Source: Gammaproteobacteria bacterium
GTDB taxonomy: Bacteria; Pseudomonadota; Gammaproteobacteria; Pseudomonadales; Azotimanducaceae
NCBI GenBank assembly: GCA_026707735.1
Contig: JAPOWH010000011.1
Span: 1-52,668 of the forward strand
Direction of reading: 5' to 3'
DNA length: 52,668 nucleotides
Shown one piece after another: positions 8,425 through 40,457 of the stretch (its first letter is position 1; each line of letters begins with the position of its first letter). Below the pieces are notes generated by a model. The model was not told where the DNA came from and did no database searches. It was given only the letters and a program-made list of their open reading frames with translations. The position numbers were made by a program, and so were the translations under genes.

Positions 8425-9420
8425 ATGAAGCGAAGCAAATTGAGTAGTGCTCTCAGAGACTTTGGTCGCCTCAAAGACGTCCGGCAACTTTCGAAAGACG
8501 ACGAGCATCGCATCGAAGAGCAGCCCAGGTTAGTAAGCCGGTTCTATGACGTAGTCACTAGGTTCTACGAGTTTGGCTGGGGCACGACGTTTCACTTCTC
8601 CCCGCGACAGCCTGGTCAGAGCTTGCGTAAGTCGCAGCAACGACACGATGAGGCAATCGGGGAACTGCTTCAACTGAAGCCGGGGATGCACGTTGCCGAT
8701 ATCGGTTGTGGTGTGGGTGGACCGCTCGTCAATATCGCCCGGGCAACCGGCGCGAGTATTACGGGTATTAATTTCAACTCTCACCAGATACGCCGTGGCG
8801 AGGACCGTGTGCGGCGCGAGGGACTAAGCGACTCATGCTCGTTTCTGTATGCGAACTATATGGATGTCCCACTGGAGAACGGCACATTTGATGCAGCGTA
8901 TTCGTTCGAGGCTGTGTGCCATTCGCCAAACAAGCCGCTAGCGTTCCACGAGCTCTTCAGGCTGCTAAAACCCAATGGCAAAGCCGCGATAGTGGATTGG
9001 TGCTTAACCAGTACGTTCGATAGCGCAATTGACCAACACGTAGACGTTCGGGACCGGATCGAGAGAACCAATGCGACGCCCGAACTGCTGACAACTGACC
9101 AATATGTCGACGCTATTCTCAGTGCGGGCTTTGAGGTCATCGAAGCCGTTGACCAACAGGCGACGAACTGTCATCCTTCAACGCCTTGGTACATGGCACT
9201 ACAGGGACGAGATGCTTCCATGTCTTCGTTCGCTCGAGTTCCCGCCGGTCGTGCTCTGACCGAGGGAGTCACCCGTGTTCTTGAATGGATGCGTCTGGCC
9301 CCCGCCGGGACCTACGAGGCCGCTCGGATTCTCAATGTCGCCGCAGACGCTCTGGTTGAAGCGGGCGAACTTGGCATTTTCACGCCAAGTTTTTTGGTAC
9401 ATGTGCGCAAGCCGACATAA
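8425..9420 (+). CDS. Sterol C-24 methyltransferase (ERG6/SMT) homologue
   Basis: 331 residues that follow the whole ERG6/SMT layout, not just the generic SAM fold. The sterol-binding Region I reads YEFGWGTTFHFSPR (48-61; ERG6 has YEYGWGxSFHF). The SAM site reads DIGCGVGGPLVNIAR (92-106). Region FEAVCHSP (161-168) matches the ERG6 EATCHAP block, and INFNSHQI matches its NNNxYQI block. The C-terminal Sterol_MT_C part is present: PWYMAL, RLAPAGTYEA, and an end of LFTP-type (IFTPSFLVHVRKP). The expected reaction is SAM-dependent methylation at C-24 of a sterol side chain, or of a related isoprenoid. No oxidosqualene cyclase or squalene epoxidase is in the window, so the substrate is open. It ends before a long hairpin. 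Confidence 0.85.
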   Translation: MKRSKLSSALRDFGRLKDVRQLSKDDEHRIEEQPRLVSRFYDVVTRFYEFGWGTTFHFSPRQPGQSLRKSQQRHDEAIGELLQLKPGMHVADIGCGVGGPLVNIARATGASITGINFNSHQIRRGEDRVRREGLSDSCSFLYANYMDVPLENGTFDAAYSFEAVCHSPNKPLAFHELFRLLKPNGKAAIVDWCLTSTFDSAIDQHVDVRDRIERTNATPELLTTDQYVDAILSAGFEVIEAVDQQATNCHPSTPWYMALQGRDASMSSFARVPAGRALTEGVTRVLEWMRLAPAGTYEAARILNVAADALVEAGELGIFTPSFLVHVRKPT

Positions 9421-30074: not shown

Positions 30075-32342
30075 ATGCCTCAACAAATGCAGATAGCTGA
30101 GCAACCTCTCACTCACGTGGAAAAGGCGGTTGCAAAGTTCAGTTTTGTCGAATTTGACGCGCGCGTTGAAGCGTACCAAAAATTGGCTTCCGAGAAAAGC
30201 GCCACTCTTCAACGGTTAATGCTCCGACGCGGAATTGCGTGGGATCGTGCGTCGGTTGACTTGTCATTCAAGGAACTAGCAGCTCAAGACTACGGGTTCG
30301 ATTCCTTCGCTCACATGGATGGATTGCTGCACCCACAATTCCCCTCATTCGAGTCGGCCGAGCGAGCGGCAGTTGCCGCTGCCTATGTTGGCAACGAAGC
30401 TAGAGTTGCTCAAATCTTGAGAATTAATGACCGATTGACGAACGAATCGCCAGCGATCGCTTTGTCTTTGGGAATCTCTCATTCACTCGATTGGCTCGAC
30501 AGTATTGACGTAAATAGTCGATTGGGTCCCATGGGGTGGCACCCTATCACCTACGTGTGTTGCTCGCAGGTTTGTGTTGATATTGACGGCGAAGAGGTAC
30601 CTAGAAAGCTCGTTCGCCAACTAATTGAATTCAACGCTAATCCAAGTGAAGGCCTTTATGAGAGCGACACGATACGCGGCTACCTTACGGTGCTTGGAGG
30701 TGCGGTGGGCTTTCGTCGCGACGGTGAATTGGTCGAACTGTTGTTGGGGGCTGGTGCGGATATCGACGATGGACCCACCCTGTACGAGGGCTGTGCCATG
30801 TGGTATGCAGTGGAGCAGAACGACGCGGTATCCATGAAACTTTTGCTCAACGCCAATGCACCACTGTGGCACTTGTGTCACGCCTTGCCGCACGCCATCG
30901 ACTTGGAGCACTACAAAATAGTCGACCAACTGCTGAGTGCAGGAGCCGACCCGAATTGGGATAAGACCGCCAAAAGCTACGGTGGGAATAGTCTGCATGA
31001 AGCGATTTTCGTAGGCAGTACCATCGCGGTTGCTAGAAAACTGGTTGATTCAAAAGCGAATTTGGATCAGAGCAATGGCGGAGGGATTACACCTACCTCA
31101 GCGGCGACCGCGTTGAACCGTACCGAATACATCCAATTCCTGAAGGAACTCGGTGTGGACACCAGTGAGTGCAGAGATCTTGATCGCTGGGTTGGCGCTT
31201 GCTTTGCACATGATCAAAATTTGGCAACTGAGATGGCCGGGTTACTGCCATCACCCGATCAATGGCGGTTCGAAGACCATCTATGGCTTTGTCACGCCGT
31301 ACGCAACGGCGACTTGGGGGCAGTGAAATTGTTGCTGAATGGCGGAACGAATCCTGGAGCTGTTGACTACGACGGCAATTCCGCGCTGCACCTTGCGGCA
31401 ACAAGTGGTAGTCGCGAACTGTGCAAGATGCTTGTTAGAAAGGGAGCGGCAATAGATGCCGTGAATTTCGAGGGTCGCCTTCCTCTAGATTGTGCCCTGG
31501 CCGAGTTGCATTGCGACGATGAACTTGTGGAATTGCTTGGAGATTCGACGATGGATCTTCCGGACTCACGTCTCTCGCTGCAAGAACAAGACGCATTCGA
31601 AGAAGCTGCGTCTGCGATACCAGAGGGCGATTTGGAAAAGCTGCGGTCCATTTGTGAGATCAATCCAAAATTTGCCAATGCACGCTCTCCTCGTCCACAT
31701 CACAGTACGCTGTTGAACTACATCGGCGTTAACGGATTTGAGGGAGAACGCCAAATCACTCCACCCAACGTTTTGGAAGTCATGGACTACCTTATTGATG
31801 AAGTGGGATGCGACACAAAGGCTTGGAACTACACGTATCGTGGCGGACCAGGCAATAACACGGTTGGATTGTTGACTTCATCAGGTCATCCTCGTGAGAT
31901 GGGGCTGACGTTGGCTATGACTCACAAAATGGTCGTAGGGGGAGCCGAAGTTAGTGCAGGGTGGCAGTTCCTTATTGAGATGCATGGTCATCGAATCGAA
32001 GGAACATTGGATGAGTTCCTCGCCGACAGCAACATGAATGCGGAATCTTCGATTGAGGCGTTTCTCGAAGCTGGAAACCTTGGAGAAATGGAATTGGTCG
32101 GTGCGTTGATGCGAGCTGGAATGGATCCTAATGTTTCCTCATGGGGAAATGTGCGCGCTCTCCACAATGCTGCGATAAACGGGGATCGTGGATTGGTTGA
32201 GTTGCTACTCGAAGCCGGAGCTGATCCGACATTGCGCGATTCCCAATTCAATGGCAATGCGGCAGGATGGGCAGACGCTGGAGGCCATGAAGACCTGGCA
32301 AGATTTCTGGTTCAGAGAATTCGAAATATGGAGTCTGACTAA
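30075..32342 (+). CDS. Ankyrin repeat protein, copy 1
   Basis: 755 residues, no signal peptide or membrane segment. The N-terminal part carries FKELAAQDYGFDSFAHMDGLL (about 75-95), the xxLAREYGFxSWxxL-type element often seen before bacterial ankyrin arrays. Clear ankyrin repeats lie at about 435-480 (NSALHLAATSGSRELCKMLV, then KGAAID and GRLPLDCA) and near 700-750 (RALHNAAINGDRGLVELLLE, then AGADPTLRD and AGWADAGGHEDLA); more degenerate ones fill the middle. Ankyrin stacks bind proteins; no catalytic domain is visible. The second, equal-length paralogue follows at 32615. It is divergent from nrdA (182 bases). The cellular role is unknown. Confidence 0.88.
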   Translation: MPQQMQIAEQPLTHVEKAVAKFSFVEFDARVEAYQKLASEKSATLQRLMLRRGIAWDRASVDLSFKELAAQDYGFDSFAHMDGLLHPQFPSFESAERAAVAAAYVGNEARVAQILRINDRLTNESPAIALSLGISHSLDWLDSIDVNSRLGPMGWHPITYVCCSQVCVDIDGEEVPRKLVRQLIEFNANPSEGLYESDTIRGYLTVLGGAVGFRRDGELVELLLGAGADIDDGPTLYEGCAMWYAVEQNDAVSMKLLLNANAPLWHLCHALPHAIDLEHYKIVDQLLSAGADPNWDKTAKSYGGNSLHEAIFVGSTIAVARKLVDSKANLDQSNGGGITPTSAATALNRTEYIQFLKELGVDTSECRDLDRWVGACFAHDQNLATEMAGLLPSPDQWRFEDHLWLCHAVRNGDLGAVKLLLNGGTNPGAVDYDGNSALHLAATSGSRELCKMLVRKGAAIDAVNFEGRLPLDCALAELHCDDELVELLGDSTMDLPDSRLSLQEQDAFEEAASAIPEGDLEKLRSICEINPKFANARSPRPHHSTLLNYIGVNGFEGERQITPPNVLEVMDYLIDEVGCDTKAWNYTYRGGPGNNTVGLLTSSGHPREMGLTLAMTHKMVVGGAEVSAGWQFLIEMHGHRIEGTLDEFLADSNMNAESSIEAFLEAGNLGEMELVGALMRAGMDPNVSSWGNVRALHNAAINGDRGLVELLLEAGADPTLRDSQFNGNAAGWADAGGHEDLARFLVQRIRNMESD

Positions 32343-32614: not shown

Positions 32615-34882
32615 ATGTCTCACCAGATCGAGCCATCTGAGCAGCCCCTTACCCACGTGGAAAAGGCTGTCGCTAAGTTCAGCTTTGTCGAATTCAATGC
32701 ACGAATCGAAGCGTACCAAGAATTTGCCGCGGAGAGCAACAGCTCTCTAAGCTGGAGACTGCTACGGCACGGATTTCAAACAACGCCGCCCTTTAGCACC
32801 GCAACATTCAAGGATCTAGTTTCCCGCGAATACGGCTTTGATTCTTTCAAGCACTTGGATGGTCTGTTGGCTCCTCAAACCCACTCGTTAGATGCTATGG
32901 AACGCGCAACTATTGCTGCAGCCTTTGTAGGCAATGAAGATAGAGTGGCTCAGCTTTTGGGATTGGACGAACGACTATTGACTGAGTCACCCGCCTTGGC
33001 ATTGTCGTTAGGAACGACGCTGCCGTCGAATTGGCTCGATGGTGGCAACGTGAACATGCGGTTGGATCCCATGGGTTGGCACCCAATCACTTACGCGTGT
33101 TGTTCACAGGTTTGCATTGATGCTGGGGGCGGCGCACAAGTTAGAAAGATAGTTCGGCAACTCCTTGAAGCGAACGCCGACCCAAGCGTTGGTCTCTATG
33201 AGAGTGACACGATGCATGGCTTCCTAACTGCGCTTGGTGGCGCAGTAGGCTTTCGACGCGACGAGGAACTGGTCAAATTGCTATTGAACGCAGGCGCAGA
33301 CATTAACGATGGTCCCTCTCGCTACGAGGGCAGTGCGATGTGGTATGCGGTTCAACTGAACGACTTGGAGAGCATGGAACATCTGCTCAACGCGAACCCG
33401 CCAATGTTTCACCTGTGTCACGCATTGCCACACTCAATCGATCTGGAGCATTACGAGATAGTCGACCAACTACTCAAAGCCGGAGCGGATCCGAATTGGG
33501 ATAAGACCGCAAGGAGCTATGGAGGAAACAGCCTACATGAAGCAGTTGTCGTAGGCAGTCCCATAGCGGTCGCGAGGAAACTGATTGAAGCCAATGCCAA
33601 TATAGATCAACACAATGTCAGAGCGATTACTCCGATTTCTGCGGCCACTGCTCTGAACCGGACCGAGTACATCCAGTTGCTGATTGAATTCGGTGCGGAT
33701 CCCAATAAATGCAGTGTTTTCGATCGATGGGTAGGAGCTTGCTTTGCGCATGATCGCATTTCGGCGGTTGAATTGTCTGGTGCGTTGCCGCGGCCTGATG
33801 AATGGCGATTTGAGGATCACCTATGGCTTTGTCACGCCGTACGCAATGACGATTTGCTGACTGTGTCATTGCTGTTGGAGGGAGGAATGAATCCTAGCGC
33901 CGTCGACTACGACGGCAATTCAGCGCTGCACTTTGCGGCAACACGCGGAAATCGCGAACTGTGCAGGATGCTTGTCGAGGCGGGGGCGGCAATTGATGTC
34001 CCGAACTTCGAAGGGAGACTACCTATCGACTGCGCCATGGCAGAGGTGCATTGCGACAGCCACTTGTTGGATTTGCTAGGAGACGCGTCGATGGATCTTC
34101 CAGACCTGCGTCTCTCACTGCGAGAAAAGGACGCGTTTGAAAAAGCCGCAACCGCCATTCCAGATGGCGACCTAGAAAAGCTGCGATCTATTTGCTGCCA
34201 ATTTCCGAAGTTTTCTCATGCCCGATCTCCACGGCCTCATCACAGTACGCTCCTGAACTACATTGGAGTCAACGGATTTGAGGCAGAACGCCAAATCACA
34301 CCCACCAACGTCTTGGAAGTGATGGATTACCTAATCGATGAAGTGGGATGCGACACAAAGGCTTGGAACTACACGTATCGCGGCGGCCCTGACAACAACA
34401 CGGTTGGATTGTTGACTTCGTCAGGTCATCCTCGCGAGATAGGTCTGACGTTGGCTATGGCCCACAAACTGGTTTTGGGTGGAGCCGAAGTTAGTGCAGG
34501 GTGGCTAATGCTCATCGAGATGCATGGTCGTCGCATTGAAGGCACTCTGGAAGAGTTTCTACATGCCTGCGACATGAAAGCGGACTCTGCACTTGAGGCC
34601 TTTCTTAAGGCTGGAATCCTTGGTGAGTCGGAATTGGTCGGAGCTTTGCTGCGCGCCGGGATAGATCCCAATGCGACCGCAAGGAGAAATGTGCGTGCGA
34701 TCCACAACGCAGCAATTAACGGCGACCGCGGCATGGTTGAGTTGCTACTCGAAGCCGGAGCTGATCCGACATTGCGCGATTCCCAATTCAATGGCAATGC
34801 GGCAGGTTGGGCAGATGCTGGAGGCCATGGGGACCTGGCAAATTTGCTGGTTCAGAGAATTCGAGAGATGGAGTCGGACTAG
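32615..34882 (+). CDS. Ankyrin repeat protein, copy 2
   Basis: 755 residues, exactly the length of copy 1 and collinear with it throughout. It shares the opening EQPLTHVEKAVAKFSFVEF, the FKDLVSREYGFDSFKHLDGLL element, and ankyrin repeats at about 435-480 and 700-750. Residues differ across the N-terminal 80 and in the middle, while the segments encoding DEVGCDTKAWNYTYRGGP and LLEAGADPTLRDSQFNGNAA are the same in both. It is intact, with no stops or shifts, so both copies are probably used. It ends nine bases before the convergent argF stop. The function is unknown; protein binding is inferred from the repeats. Confidence 0.88.
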   Translation: MSHQIEPSEQPLTHVEKAVAKFSFVEFNARIEAYQEFAAESNSSLSWRLLRHGFQTTPPFSTATFKDLVSREYGFDSFKHLDGLLAPQTHSLDAMERATIAAAFVGNEDRVAQLLGLDERLLTESPALALSLGTTLPSNWLDGGNVNMRLDPMGWHPITYACCSQVCIDAGGGAQVRKIVRQLLEANADPSVGLYESDTMHGFLTALGGAVGFRRDEELVKLLLNAGADINDGPSRYEGSAMWYAVQLNDLESMEHLLNANPPMFHLCHALPHSIDLEHYEIVDQLLKAGADPNWDKTARSYGGNSLHEAVVVGSPIAVARKLIEANANIDQHNVRAITPISAATALNRTEYIQLLIEFGADPNKCSVFDRWVGACFAHDRISAVELSGALPRPDEWRFEDHLWLCHAVRNDDLLTVSLLLEGGMNPSAVDYDGNSALHFAATRGNRELCRMLVEAGAAIDVPNFEGRLPIDCAMAEVHCDSHLLDLLGDASMDLPDLRLSLREKDAFEKAATAIPDGDLEKLRSICCQFPKFSHARSPRPHHSTLLNYIGVNGFEAERQITPTNVLEVMDYLIDEVGCDTKAWNYTYRGGPDNNTVGLLTSSGHPREIGLTLAMAHKLVLGGAEVSAGWLMLIEMHGRRIEGTLEEFLHACDMKADSALEAFLKAGILGESELVGALLRAGIDPNATARRNVRAIHNAAINGDRGMVELLLEAGADPTLRDSQFNGNAAGWADAGGHGDLANLLVQRIREMESD

Positions 34883-34891
34883 GTGACAAAC

Positions 34892-35794
34892 TCAATCTAC
34901 ACTTAGCAAATGCTCGATCAGTGCCTTCTGCGAGTGAAGCCGATTGCCGGCTTCTTGCCAGACCGCTGAGCGAGGATCGTCTAGCACGAATTCGTCTACT
35001 TCTTCACCACGATGGGCTGGCAAGCAATGCAGAAACAGGCAACCGGGATTAGCGTTGTCCAAGACATGCGAGTCGATCTGGAATCCATCAAACGATTGTT
35101 TGCGATCCAATTCCTGCTCGTGACCCATCGAGGACCATACATCGGTGACAACGAGGTCCGCGTTGTCTACGGCAGAAGCGGGATCTTCGAGTAACACGAC
35201 GTGTCTGCGAGACTCTGCTGGTAGATACGTGGGTGCATGACTTCTTGGAGTCGCCACGCGTAGCTGGAAATCGAATTGGGCAGCGGCTTCGATGTAGCTA
35301 TTGCACATGTTGTAACCGTCGCCAACGAATGCAACTGTTCTACCCTTGATCGGTCCCCGCTGTTCAATGAAGGTCTGAATGTCGGCAAGCAATTGACACG
35401 GATGAAGCAAATCGCTCATGCCATTGATTACAGGAATTGTTGCAGCTTCCGCGAACTTCGCGATCGTCTCGTGCTTGCTGGCACGAATCATGACTATATC
35501 GAGCATCTGAGAAAGCACACGAGCCGTGTCCTCGATGGGTTCTCCACGACCGAGCTGCGTATCGTCTGCATTGAGAAAGATTGATGATCCACCCAACTGA
35601 TACATTCCGGCTTCAAACGCCACTCTCGTTCGTGTAGATCTCAGTTCAAAGATCATTCCAAGCACGCGCCCCGCACAGGTAGTGTGGCTCTTCCCGGTTT
35701 GCTGATGCTCTTTAAGTTCGATGCCTCGAGCGACGATCGCATGCAATTCTTCCTCACCACAGTCAAAGAGACTAAGGAAGTGTTTCGGCTTCAT
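34892..35794 (-). CDS. argF: Ornithine carbamoyltransferase (ArgF)
   Basis: 300 residues. The carbamoyl-phosphate loop STRTR is at 53-57, HPCQ at 131-134, and HCLPAHRG from 256; together these define an ornithine (not aspartate) carbamoyltransferase. It makes citrulline from ornithine and carbamoyl phosphate. The residue pair before the loop is Leu-Arg (FELRSTRTR), where most enzymes I recall have FEKxSTRTR. Its ATG overlaps the argD stop by four bases, so argD-argF are coupled. The last ~48 codons are duplicated as the remnant at 32352-32497. Confidence 0.95.
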   Translation of the reverse strand: MKPKHFLSLFDCGEEELHAIVARGIELKEHQQTGKSHTTCAGRVLGMIFELRSTRTRVAFEAGMYQLGGSSIFLNADDTQLGRGEPIEDTARVLSQMLDIVMIRASKHETIAKFAEAATIPVINGMSDLLHPCQLLADIQTFIEQRGPIKGRTVAFVGDGYNMCNSYIEAAAQFDFQLRVATPRSHAPTYLPAESRRHVVLLEDPASAVDNADLVVTDVWSSMGHEQELDRKQSFDGFQIDSHVLDNANPGCLFLHCLPAHRGEEVDEFVLDDPRSAVWQEAGNRLHSQKALIEHLLSVD

Positions 35795-36954
35795 GTGCGT
35801 TCCAGGACGAGATCCGCTACTGTTTTGACAAGCTTTTCCGCATCCGGGGTTGACAGATTCAGCGGCGGCAGTAAGCGAATCACCGAGTCAGCTGTTACGT
35901 TGAGTAATACGCCGCAATCCAGCGCTCGCCCTACAACATCGACGCAGGGCTCGTGCAATTCAACGGCAACCATCATGCCTTTGCCACGAATGTCCTTGAC
36001 CAAGTTGCAGCCTCGAAGGGCTTTTCGTAATCCCTGAACCATTGCTACCCCAATTTCTGCCGCATGATCTATCACGCCATCGGTGAGTTGCTCGATCGTT
36101 GCTAACGCCGCCGCGCAAGCCAATGGGTTGCCCCCAAATGTCGTGGCGTGTGTCCCTGCTACAAGAATCTCGGCCGCATCGCCCCTGGCTAGGCACGCAC
36201 CAATCGGCACTCCGTTTGCTAAACCCTTCGCTGTGGTCACTACATCTGGAACGATGCTTGAATGCTGAAAGGCAAAGTACTTGCCAGTTCTCCCGTTTCC
36301 TGTTTGGACTTCATCCAGCATGAGGAGCCACCCTCTGCGGTCACATACTTGTCGCAGGTGCGGCAGATAGTTGTCGTCAGGTATTCGCACTCCTCCTTCG
36401 CCGAGAATTGGCTCGACGAGAATTGCGACGACAGACTCATTCGATTCCGCCAGCGAATTGATGGATTCGATGTCGTTATAGGGCACTTGGACGAAGCCAC
36501 TAAGCAAAGGCGCAAACCCGGTTTGTACCTTTGAATTGCCGGTCGCTGTCAACGTAGCCATAGTCCGGCCGTGGAAGCTCCCTTCCATGGTGATCACTAC
36601 AGGAGTATCGATTTTTCGTTGGTTCCCGAGCTTCCGTGCCAGCTTCAATGCAGCCTCGTTGGACTCCGCTCCTGAATTGCAAAAGAACACGTTGTCCATT
36701 CCCGAGAGGGCGCACAGACGTTCGGCCAACTTGGTTTGCAGCGGTATTTCGTACAAGTTCGATGTGTGGAGTAGGGTTGCCGCTTGGTCGGAGATTGCCT
36801 TGGCCACTCGGGGATTGGCGTGGCCCAGTGCACAGACAGCAATGCCTGACAGACCATCGAGGTACCGTTTCCCATCCTCGTCCTCCAGATAGGAACCCTC
36901 TCCCTTGACAAAACTAACCGGAAAACGGTTGTAGGTGGGCATAACGGAAGTCAT
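35791..36954 (-). CDS. argD: Acetylornithine aminotransferase (ArgD)
   Basis: 387 residues, class III PLP aminotransferase. GNSK and FHGRTMATLTATG, then MLDEVQTGNGRTG and the Schiff-base Lys243 in TTAKGLANGVPIG, are all in place. It converts N-acetylglutamate semialdehyde to N-acetylornithine in arginine synthesis, and may also act in lysine synthesis. AAGGA lies eight bases before the ATG. It is the first gene of argD-argF. A terminator-like hairpin lies in its leader (36998-37019), so attenuation is possible. ArgG is encoded separately at 44792. Confidence 0.95.
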   Translation of the reverse strand: MTSVMPTYNRFPVSFVKGEGSYLEDEDGKRYLDGLSGIAVCALGHANPRVAKAISDQAATLLHTSNLYEIPLQTKLAERLCALSGMDNVFFCNSGAESNEAALKLARKLGNQRKIDTPVVITMEGSFHGRTMATLTATGNSKVQTGFAPLLSGFVQVPYNDIESINSLAESNESVVAILVEPILGEGGVRIPDDNYLPHLRQVCDRRGWLLMLDEVQTGNGRTGKYFAFQHSSIVPDVVTTAKGLANGVPIGACLARGDAAEILVAGTHATTFGGNPLACAAALATIEQLTDGVIDHAAEIGVAMVQGLRKALRGCNLVKDIRGKGMMVAVELHEPCVDVVGRALDCGVLLNVTADSVIRLLPPLNLSTPDAEKLVKTVADLVLERT

Positions 36955-37019: not shown

Positions 37020-37202
37020 CTGAACCAAGATATTAGTCAACGCACTGTTGGTCGTCAATGAGTCGTAGCAGTACAACCGGCGTAGCTACTGACGCAATAG
37101 AGCAAACAAATGTTGCAATTGCTAACTTTCCTCTTATGATTTTGTCTAAGGTCCTACGAGGCTAAACGCGACACATTGGATCAAGTTGCGGTAGAGAGGA
37201 GA

Positions 37203-39209
37203 ATGCTAACTGTTACTGAAGAACTGATTTTGTTGTTGATTGACGATCAGGAAGGATCGTTTGTCCACATTGAGCCAATGCGGCTCGATTGGCTGACGGC
37301 AGGAGGCGTTCTTGCCGATCTCCACTTCCTTGAGCGTATCGAAGTTGGCAGGTCAAAACTGGAAGTAATAAACGAGTCTCCAACCGGTGAGTTATTGCTC
37401 GATCCAACCCTCTCCGACATAGGCAACAGCAAGAAATCTAGAGACTTGCTGTATTGGCTCAAGCACACTGCGTTGCGAGCTGAGGTTATCCGAGAGTTAG
37501 CTCTTCGCAGACTTGTGTCGAGTGGAATTTTGGTGGTTGACGAGGATGGCCTGCACAGACGCTCACGATGGGTGCGCGACACACACAAGTATCCAATACT
37601 AGCCGAAGGCGAGAACTTCGAAGTCAAGGTTCGAGCGATGGAAGCCTTGCTAAGTGGGGTTGTTCCCTCGAAGCGCGATGTTGCCATCGTGGCTGTTGCT
37701 CACGCATGTAATGCGTTTGCTGCGCTCATGTCGCGCGATGAATTTGCCGATATCGAAGCACAATGCAATCGGGTATGTAGCACCAATAGGGCATTGCAAG
37801 TCTTGCACGAGACCATCGAACATGGCATCGAGTCGAAGTCACACACCCCTACGGCTCGAGGATTGCCGGTTATCGGCAACGCGATCGAGATGGCGGGTAA
37901 CGTTGGTCAGTTCCTGACGGACCAATATCTCAAATTGGGTCCAGTGTATCGAGTCAAGATACTCAATAGGGAGTACACGGTGCTGGCGGGAGCAAACGCT
38001 AACAATTTTGTAAACCGGCAAGGGCGTGAGTATCTGCGATCTAAGGAAACTTGGCAGGACTTTGACAGCGAACTTGGTGCGTCGACATCTATGGTCAGCG
38101 CTGATGGCGAAGAGCACTTTAAATTGCGACGTGGAATGCGCGATGCGTTCTCGCAACGAGTAGTAACCAATCACATCGACAGAGTCGTCTCTATAGCCCG
38201 TAGGGAAATTGGCTTGCTGAACGACGAACGACCCAAACGGGTCCACTACACGATGCAGCGATTAGTTTCCGAGCAAATCGGAGTCCTAACGACGGGGGTC
38301 TCTCCTGCCGATTGCGTGGACGATCTCATATTTTTCTTGGAAACGATGCTCTTGTTACGTGTTACCAAAGCTCGTCCGAGCATGGAATTGCCTATGCCTC
38401 GTGTGAAGCGCGCTCAGAAGCGCTTGATAGAGTTTGCAAACAATGTGCTAAACGCGCATGATCCACACCTGCGCCAAAGGCAGGAACCAGACTTGATTGA
38501 CACGATTTTGGAATTGCACCGCCAAGACCCGACTTTGGTTCCGGAAACCGATTTGGTAATTACGTCCCTAGGACCCTTCTTTGCCGGCCTGGAAACTGCG
38601 GCGACAGCGTCATCGTTTCTGCTCTACACGACACTCACGCAACCAGATCTGCTTGAGGAAATGCGAAAGGAAGCAGCTGAGTTCTTTGAGGGACCGATGA
38701 CAGGCGAACGTGCGCTTGAGACATTCGATGTAATTCGACGTTCGATGATGGAAACAATGAGATTATTTCCCGTAGTTCCCTCGATAATCCGCACGGTTTC
38801 GAACTCATTCGATTTTGAGGGGTACCGGATTCCAGCGGGTGAGCAGGTCATGGTCGCCGTGTCGGTTCCACACTACCTAGAGGAATACTTTCCCAATCCC
38901 AAGGAATTCGATATAGACAGATACCTTCCTGATCGCGAGGAGCACCGAAAACTCGGTGCATATGCGCCGTTTGGACTAGGAGCCCATAGATGTCTTGGGG
39001 CAGATTTCGCGGAACTCTTGGTTATGACGAATATCGCGACGCTGATTCACTATTTTGACATTCGCCTTAGCAATCCAAAGTACACATTGCGGATGAGACC
39101 GATCCCGACTCTGCATCCAGATGACGGCTTTCGCGTTCATTTCGAACCGCGCCAGTCAATGGCCATTCGCCAAGATGCTAAGGAAGCCGCGCTTGAAGTC
39201 GAAGACTAG
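37203..39209 (+). CDS. GPP34 domain - cytochrome P450 fusion protein
   Basis: 668 residues from ATG 37203 (AGAGG just upstream; an in-frame TTG at 37176 is the alternative). Residues 1-195 match the GPP34 (GOLPH3-like) fold: LTVTEELILLLIDDQEG, LDWLTAGGVLADL, ERIEV, and the SPTGELLLDPTLSDIG block. Residues about 210-655 are a complete P450: I-helix FFAGLETAATA (459-469), ExxR as ETMR (517-520), FDIDRYLP, and the haem loop FGLGAHRCLG with Cys597. GPP34 domains bind anionic lipids in eukaryotes; P450s oxidise lipophilic substrates with an external reductase. The fusion may seat the oxidase on a membrane. No redox partner gene is near. The substrate is unknown. Confidence 0.88.
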   Translation: MLTVTEELILLLIDDQEGSFVHIEPMRLDWLTAGGVLADLHFLERIEVGRSKLEVINESPTGELLLDPTLSDIGNSKKSRDLLYWLKHTALRAEVIRELALRRLVSSGILVVDEDGLHRRSRWVRDTHKYPILAEGENFEVKVRAMEALLSGVVPSKRDVAIVAVAHACNAFAALMSRDEFADIEAQCNRVCSTNRALQVLHETIEHGIESKSHTPTARGLPVIGNAIEMAGNVGQFLTDQYLKLGPVYRVKILNREYTVLAGANANNFVNRQGREYLRSKETWQDFDSELGASTSMVSADGEEHFKLRRGMRDAFSQRVVTNHIDRVVSIARREIGLLNDERPKRVHYTMQRLVSEQIGVLTTGVSPADCVDDLIFFLETMLLLRVTKARPSMELPMPRVKRAQKRLIEFANNVLNAHDPHLRQRQEPDLIDTILELHRQDPTLVPETDLVITSLGPFFAGLETAATASSFLLYTTLTQPDLLEEMRKEAAEFFEGPMTGERALETFDVIRRSMMETMRLFPVVPSIIRTVSNSFDFEGYRIPAGEQVMVAVSVPHYLEEYFPNPKEFDIDRYLPDREEHRKLGAYAPFGLGAHRCLGADFAELLVMTNIATLIHYFDIRLSNPKYTLRMRPIPTLHPDDGFRVHFEPRQSMAIRQDAKEAALEVED

Positions 39210-39225: not shown

Positions 39226-40104
39226 CTATTCTGCGCCCAAGTGCTTCTTGAAGAAGTCGAGAGTCGCTTTTTCCACTCGCTCGGAGTGATCAGGTGCACC
39301 AAAAGAATGCCCTGCACCCTCGATTTCAATGTACTCAGTGGTAACCCCTGCTTCCTGCAACGCAGCATGCATACGCTGACTATGGTTCACTGGCACCACC
39401 TCGTCCTGATCCCCGTGAATAAGGAGTATGGGTGGGTCATCTTCGGTTACAAACTCAATCGGCGAATTGGCTGGCGCCAACTCTGCATCGAAGCGCAACG
39501 CAGGGTATTCTGATTCAGAATTCACCCAGTCCTTTAGATCAACAGGAGGAAAGTAGGCAACCACCGCTTGGACTCGATTTGATACCTGATTGATTGGGTC
39601 TGCAGCTTCGGCATCACCCTCATCGCTTGTCAACCCTAGCATTAGCGACAAGTGTCCTCCCGCACTTGCACCATATACACCAATTCTGTCTCCATCTATC
39701 CCAAAGCGGTCAGCGTTTGCTCGTATGTGTCGAACAGCGCGACGCACATCGCGAACTGCATCGGGAACCTGATAGCGCGAAGAACTTCCGTGATTTACTG
39801 CAATGAGTGTGAACCCTTCGTCGGTGAGAAAATCGGTGAAGGTAGCCAAGACTTCCCCGTCGATCAGGTATGAATACCAGCCTCCACTAAGCATCAGCAA
39901 GACCGCTGCCCCATTTTGCTCTTCAGGCGTTAGCACGTGGTAGATGAGCGCCATTCCATCCTTCTTTCCATAGATGACATCCTCTTCAACCTCTACAGCA
40001 TTTGCAGCTTGGGTAAACACCAATGTAAGCAGGCAAATCGTTGCTATGGTCGAGACAAGATAGTGTTTTGCTATCAACGACTTAAGGGAGTTTCGGCGCT
40101 TCAT
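39226..40104 (-). CDS. Exported alpha/beta hydrolase (esterase/BD-FAE-like)
   Basis: 292 residues from ATG 40104 (GAGAT upstream); the frame continues to 40161 without conserved sequence. A signal peptide is clear (hydrophobic core STIATICLLTLVF, cleavage near ANA-VE). The catalytic set is Ser in GVYGASAGGHL, Asp in IHGDQDEVVP and His in GAGHSFG. LMLSGGWYSYLIDGE is in the oxyanion position. It resembles carboxylesterases and BD-FAE-type hydrolases acting in the periplasm. It is convergent with the P450 fusion (16-base gap), so shared regulation is not implied. Confidence 0.87.
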   Translation of the reverse strand: MKRRNSLKSLIAKHYLVSTIATICLLTLVFTQAANAVEVEEDVIYGKKDGMALIYHVLTPEEQNGAAVLLMLSGGWYSYLIDGEVLATFTDFLTDEGFTLIAVNHGSSSRYQVPDAVRDVRRAVRHIRANADRFGIDGDRIGVYGASAGGHLSLMLGLTSDEGDAEAADPINQVSNRVQAVVAYFPPVDLKDWVNSESEYPALRFDAELAPANSPIEFVTEDDPPILLIHGDQDEVVPVNHSQRMHAALQEAGVTTEYIEIEGAGHSFGAPDHSERVEKATLDFFKKHLGAE

Positions 40105-40457
40105 TTTTCGATCTCTACGGGTGATGAAGGAAGAGAGTATACATTCGCGGAAGGATCTCACTTGATAGCGTCAGCACGCTGAATAGTTCTCATTACGCCT
40201 CCCCGAGGTTGAATTTGATCAATGGATTGCGCGATTCATTGAGGCGAACTACTTGAACAACATTCAAGCGTTTGGCCGGTCAGATTTCGAGGGAAAACCA
40301 CTTTGAGCAGTACGGGAACACCCACCAGTCAGATTTTGAACAGTCCAATCTCGCCGCAAGCAAGATCCGGCAGTTTGGTGCTGAGTCGAGTCGCAGGGAC
40401 GCCTGGCCATGCCCGTTTAGACAACGCACAACGCAGAGTATTGCCGCTAGCGGGATA
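40105..40457. other. Intergenic region with a possible gene remnant
   Basis: A plus-strand frame at 40187-40306 has no start codon but reads PEVEFDQWIARFIEANYLNN and then IQAFGRSDFEGKPL before a TGA. Its composition looks like real protein rather than shadow sequence. It could be the tail of a lost gene, but no family is recognised. The rest of the region shows nothing. Confidence 0.3.

Follow-up and report, generated by a model that had tools for sequence, protein, structure and literature searches.

The closest described proteins to the GPP34 domain treated here are GOLPH3 and Vps74, both of which are found in the PDB by a profile that was built from 13 such domains of bacteria (E 2.9e-25 and 1.2e-20, respectively), and the domain itself scores above the Pfam cut-off of the family. 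It differs from both in being fused to a cytochrome P450 and in replacing three of the four residues that we take to form the PI4P pocket. Bacterial GPP34 proteins have little assigned function, and the one member we found treated in the literature is SCO4440 of Streptomyces coelicolor, a GOLPH3-like protein with a cell-wall phenotype, for which the accessible part of PMC12402492 reports an effect on wall-deficient cells and peptidoglycan dimers. SCO4440 pairs with the carboxypeptidase gene sco4439, and P450s are absent from the same accessible text, whereas the bacterial GPP34 protein described here carries a P450 in its own reading frame. A second point of reference is provided by the bacterial sterol gene clusters known from sponge symbionts, which comprise genes for sterol C24-methyltransferase (SMT), sdmA/B, ERG24, CYP51 and LSS, and which are described without mention of GPP34 in the accessible main texts of PMC10070321 and PMC9531527. 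A similar gene set is present in the genome studied here, which differs by the GPP34-P450 fusion as an added companion and by a squalene epoxidase (SE) and a cyclase encoded in a single frame.

The fusion gene and its distribution

The window, i.e., the whole stretch of 52,668 nucleotides that was analysed, contains the fusion gene as one frame without internal stops from an ATG (37203) to a TAG (39209), with AGAGGAG immediately 5' of the ATG and an in-frame TTG farther upstream at 37176 (Table 1). The original prediction of a GOLPH3-like N-terminal domain followed by a complete P450 in a single frame, with a match to PF05719 over residues 1-195, is confirmed by Pfam scores of 90.6 bits for the GPP34 domain (cut-off 29.1) and 177.9 bits for the P450 (PF00067, cut-off 22.8), and its description of the pairing as odd also holds. 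The PF00067 match, the Cys ligand motif and the ExxR motif as marks of the P450 superfamily are all present, together with the acid-alcohol pair in the I-helix that is typical of monooxygenases, and the gene product is a haem-thiolate enzyme and most likely a monooxygenase, from a P450 lineage characterised by an N-terminal GPP34 module. The flanking genes are all located on the opposite strand, so the fusion gene is probably transcribed alone. Two tandem proteins of 755 amino acids belonging to one cluster are also encoded in the window (30075-32342 and 32615-34882), the first of which matched ankyrin repeats.

Table 1. Coordinates of the features discussed. Positions refer to the window unless preceded by the number of a fetched locus (L).
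Feature	Position	Strand	Basis
Sterol C24-methyltransferase homologue, 28 kb from the fusion gene	8425..9420	+	PF08498 7.1e-20 and methyltransferase domains
Ornithine carbamoyltransferase	34892..35794	-	TIGR00658 338 bits
Acetylornithine aminotransferase family (argD type), divergent from the fusion gene	35791..36954	-	TIGR00707 457 bits
GPP34-P450 fusion gene, class I, 668 aa	37203..39209	+	Open frame, Pfam, orthologues
GPP34 domain, residues 5-204	37215..37814	+	PF05719 E 1.8e-25
Cytochrome P450 domain, residues 218-623	37854..39071	+	PF00067 E 4.2e-52
I-helix AGLET, acid-threonine pair, residues 461-465	38583..38597	+	Alignments
K-helix ExxR, residues 517-520	38751..38762	+	Alignments
Haem-binding FGLGAHRCLG, thiolate Cys597	38970..38999	+	Alignments
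Alpha/beta hydrolase (BD-FAE), convergent with the fusion gene	39226..40161	-	PF20434 1.9e-39
GPP34-MFS fusions	L156:7462-9327, L157:7607-9514, L158:6132-8030		
GPP34-multi-pass loci	L089, L090, L091, L092, L093, L094, L096, L097, L098, L100, L102, L103, L160		

Orthologues of the window protein with 67-68% identity over residues 2-655 or more are encoded in the genomes G003 and G007 (G000 denotes the window's own genome, other G numbers sampled relatives), which rules out an assembly join of two separate genes. A split relative is known, i.e., the copy L106 of G170, which is found in two frames, but the identical architecture occurs in 45 of 200 sampled genomes of the family as well as in G392, which belongs to a different family and was recovered from the loci of the class and phylum samples, and we regard the chance that an assembly or frameshift artefact fused two genes as practically negligible. 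The family count is based on fetched loci and leaves out G073, which encodes a GPP34 stub of 57 residues within a frame of 626 amino acids; three of the copies (G193, G120 and G186) reach past a contig end. As judged from a whole-protein search of 38 genomes including its own, near-full-length matches to the window protein are present in all 18 genomes of the genus and in one from another genus of the same family. G000 itself contains three GPP34 genes, namely a stand-alone copy on contig C4, a second P450 fusion on C6, which is 34% identical to the window gene, and the window gene on C16. Matches to PF05719 were obtained in 61 of the 200 family genomes (59 above the cut-off), and those above the cut-off in 8 of 369 genomes of a class sample and 9 of 398 of a phylum sample, G000 being included in both. 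No P450 was found among the listed neighbours (6 kb on each side, from an incomplete gene table) of two actinobacterial plasmid GPP34 genes, from a search matching nine records, and no description of a GPP34-P450 fusion was found in the titles and abstract beginnings of the open-access papers listed.

Two classes of fused P450

A tree calculated from 68 P450 domains contains a supported branch that separates the 50 fusion rows, together with the split copy L106, from the remainder; note that the other 17 rows represent P450s of relatives and sterol clusters rather than P450s at large, that P450 parts of less than 330 aligned residues and duplicate loci were dropped, and that the program warned of long branches. 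Within the fusions, a supported clade of 45 rows is referred to as class II, and the six members outside this clade as class I (the window gene, its two orthologues, L084, L099 and L072). Class I, including the window gene, retains the acid-threonine pair of the I-helix, which in all 45 rows of class II is replaced by a Tyr and one residue fewer, while the haem Cys and the ExxR motif are kept. The gene following the class I fusion belongs to one cluster in L072 and L084 and was identified as a sulfotransferase by Pfam in L084. The GPP34-P450 frame of L099 (5285-9268) contains about 670 additional N-terminal residues, which by eye look like a frame open by chance in GC-rich DNA.

For the profiles of both classes, CYP51 entries score best in the PDB (E 2.2e-44 for class I and 1.8e-34 for class II), the top ones presumably from Methylococcus, which likens the fused P450s to sterol 14alpha-demethylase. 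NCBIfam names nothing specific for them, all matches being far below the cut-offs. Unlike CYP51, for which a putative separate gene is present in the sterol cluster of G000, the window P450 is 25% identical over 238 residues to the P450 encoded there, and the segment that we take to be a CYP51-type SRS1 (VYQFTVPIFG in the cluster P450) is not found in the window P450, which reads KETWQDFD. The cluster P450 is not named CYP51 by any NCBIfam model, and we assume this identity from its place and the same motif. A tree of 102 GPP34 domains requires two changes for those fused to P450s, which may nevertheless have a single origin.

Sterol genes in fusion genomes and beside fusion genes

The sterol cluster of G000 is located on contig C9 and contains genes for a NUDIX protein, HMG-CoA reductase with GHMP kinase, a 3beta-HSD-like protein, a Rieske protein, ERG4/ERG24, the P450, SE with cyclase, squalene/phytoene synthase and SMT. 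The homologues of oxidosqualene cyclase, SE, ERG24 and SMT pass their Pfam cut-offs; the Rieske protein reaches 406 bits with the SdmA model (cut-off 600), and the SE-cyclase 724 bits with the NCBIfam oxidosqualene cyclase model, under its cut-off of 851, compared to 259 bits with the hopene cyclase model. The combined frame of squalene epoxidase and squalene/oxidosqualene-type cyclase (L133:8184-11975) encodes 1263 amino acids near a fusion of HMG-CoA reductase and GHMP kinase, and a cyclase profile built from the G000 protein also hits the SE frame in all seven of the other strong-SE loci that were read. The sterol genes of the window's organism suggest that it may originate from a sponge. 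The window gene itself is located outside this cluster, the nearest SMT gene being the homologue 28 kb away in the window, one of three in the genome.

At the genome level, the fusion family is associated with sterol-tailoring genes. SMT (PF08498) is encoded in 36 of the 45 fusion genomes but in 2 of the 155 others, and all 38 SMT genomes among the 200 encode GPP34, 36 of them as the fusion; completeness is 64% and 71% for the remaining two. Strong matches to SE, i.e., those of 69 bits or more, were obtained in 18 of the 45 fusion genomes compared to none of the 155 others; 113 of the 131 genomes with any SE match have matches of at most 42 bits, which were left out of the count because an E. 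coli control matches as well, and which are probably relatives of UbiH. Both SMT and a strong SE match are missing from seven of the 45 fusion genomes, some of which are incomplete. When only the 61 GPP34-positive genomes are considered, SMT is present in 36 of 45 with the fusion compared to 2 of 16 without (Fisher p 2.9e-6), at the level of 37 genera all four SMT genera fall within the six fusion genera (counted by hand; p 2e-4), and the 32 GPP34 genomes of three other genera are distributed as 19 with both, six with the fusion only, two with SMT only and five with neither (p 0.03), where Fisher tests ignore shared ancestry and the genus-level and within-genus tests, the latter restricted to GPP34 genomes, reduce the effect of kinship but leave part of it.

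Outside class I, the association extends to the neighbouring genes, as an SMT, Rieske-oxygenase or RND gene occurs in the flanks of 41 of these 46 fusion genes. Counted over 51 fusion genes, which exclude the window gene, the flanks contain RND genes in 34 cases, SMT in 19, and Rieske proteins, counted apart by type, in 17 (KshA type) and three (SdmA type); these values are lower bounds, since one flank is shorter than 6 kb in 17 of the 51 cases. Within 600 bp of the fusion genes outside class I, RND genes are found in 19 cases, KshA-type Rieske genes in 11 and SMT in nine. The flanks of 46 other GPP34 genes used as control yielded no SMT or SdmA-type gene, one RND gene and one KshA-type gene, the last adjoining the split fusion L106, and those of 13 GPP34-TM genes yielded no SMT, RND or Rieske gene. 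In G005, G009 and G012, 64-65 bp separate the fusion gene from SMT, an SdmA-type Rieske gene, a second P450 gene and a squalene epoxidase gene are located at distances of 3.5-7.3 kb, and the KshA-type Rieske protein of G000 carries the C-terminal domain of 3-ketosteroid hydroxylase (PF19298). For the class I genes, SMT, Rieske or RND genes are nearby in none of the six cases (five fetched flanks of 1.7-8 kb, and the window with its distant SMT gene), but SMT is encoded in five of the six class I genomes (G000, G003, G007, G088 and G170, with G144 as the exception). A sterol substrate for the window's gene would be deduced from its kinship and the sterol genes of its genome rather than from its neighbours.

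The frequent RND genes, the commonest neighbours, might also indicate a module for detoxification or specialised metabolism, in which the P450 would oxidise a foreign or self-made hydrophobic compound for export by the neighbouring pump, and the sterol link would be a by-product of ancestry and lifestyle. Such a role would agree with the tested RND protein scoring best against models of multidrug-efflux subfamilies, although below their cut-offs, and with the recurrence of genes for membrane-fusion and outer-membrane factors. It appears unlikely to us, as SMT or KshA-type Rieske genes are located near many of these same fusions, SMT and the fusion tend to occur together within genera (if only at the p value of 0.03 given above), and the RND protein BstA of Methylococcus binds sterols via its periplasmic domain, according to the accessible text of PMC10942540.

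The GPP34 domain and its possible role

The PI4P-pocket residues of GOLPH3, which we take to be W81, R90, R171 and R174, presumably characterise eukaryotic proteins that bind PI4P and not the Pfam family. The corresponding residues of the window protein are E, A, E and R, where the stretch around W81 aligns with gaps, and 41 of 47 P450-fused GPP34 domains retain none of the four, the equivalent of R174 being kept in six of the 47. The duplicate loci L142-L155 and the loci L175-L184 stand outside this count, the GPP34 tree and the rows on hydrophobic segments and His residues. The window GPP34 domain alone matched Vps74 in the PDB with an E value of 0.35, which is not significant, and an AlphaFold2 model built from three sequences only (the orthologues) reached a mean pLDDT of 30.

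It had been proposed that the domain reads acidic head groups through a basic pocket and thereby docks an oxidase to the membrane; in this reading the P450 would act on fatty acyl chains or other lipids. The profile matches to GOLPH3 and Vps74 and the retained R174 equivalent are in line with this idea, as is the apparent lack of a separate membrane anchor, because hydrophobic segments are absent from 17 of the 47 fusions and located near residue 460, probably in the I helix, in the 10 printed rows that have one. Head-group reading loses ground by the replaced pocket, as far as the assumed positions apply, and docking is weakened by the occurrence of GPP34 on proteins that are integrated into the membrane anyway. 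These are MFS transporters in three genes from two genomes of the class (G229 and G526) and a multi-pass, His-rich domain without Pfam match in 13 genes, which contains four invariant His residues paired at a spacing of 14 in all 13 rows. Taking the three replaced pocket residues (of four) and the fusions to multi-pass membrane proteins together, we doubt that the domain serves for simple lipid docking, and we consider the docked oxidase even less probable than the detoxification module. A multihaem cytochrome c gene is located at most 35 bp from each of the 13 GPP34-multi-pass genes (Pfam was run on two), and the sequences of these units look like a di-haem cytochrome b involved in electron transfer. 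Eight of the 13 loci also contain a gene of one cluster, which is Tll0287-like in the one tested.

We favour, with a probability of roughly 0.45, a GPP34-scaffolded P450 which would act on a sterol or a related triterpenoid in the cytoplasmic membrane. The GPP34 module would position the P450 on the face of the membrane, close to other proteins that tailor lipids, and would function in clustering or as an adaptor instead of reading phosphoinositides; such a role is preferred to head-group reading because the PI4P pocket of GOLPH3 is not kept and two of the fusion kinds need no docking. A much wider scheme seems a long shot: bacterial GPP34 might be a general adaptor, with an activity perhaps older than the Golgi, bringing proteins for lipid tailoring and redox reactions together at the membrane, and class II might consist of haem-thiolate enzymes binding or rearranging sterols instead of ordinary monooxygenases, working with the Rieske oxygenase and SMT and passing sterols with modified side chains to an RND exporter dedicated to them, which would allow host-associated bacteria to remodel sterols and to supply them.

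The initial expectation that the GPP34-P450 pairing hints at the role of bacterial GPP34 has proved useful, since the fusion family tracks genes of sterol, and thus lipid, metabolism, and the genome counts and neighbourhoods that had been called for place sterol-tailoring genes beside many relatives of the window gene. The fusion and its sterol context provide bacterial GPP34 with a concrete and testable partner and chemistry. If the proposed function is true, the fused P450s would represent a new group of enzymes in bacterial sterol tailoring, with a bearing on the makers of unusual sponge sterols and on sterane biomarkers.
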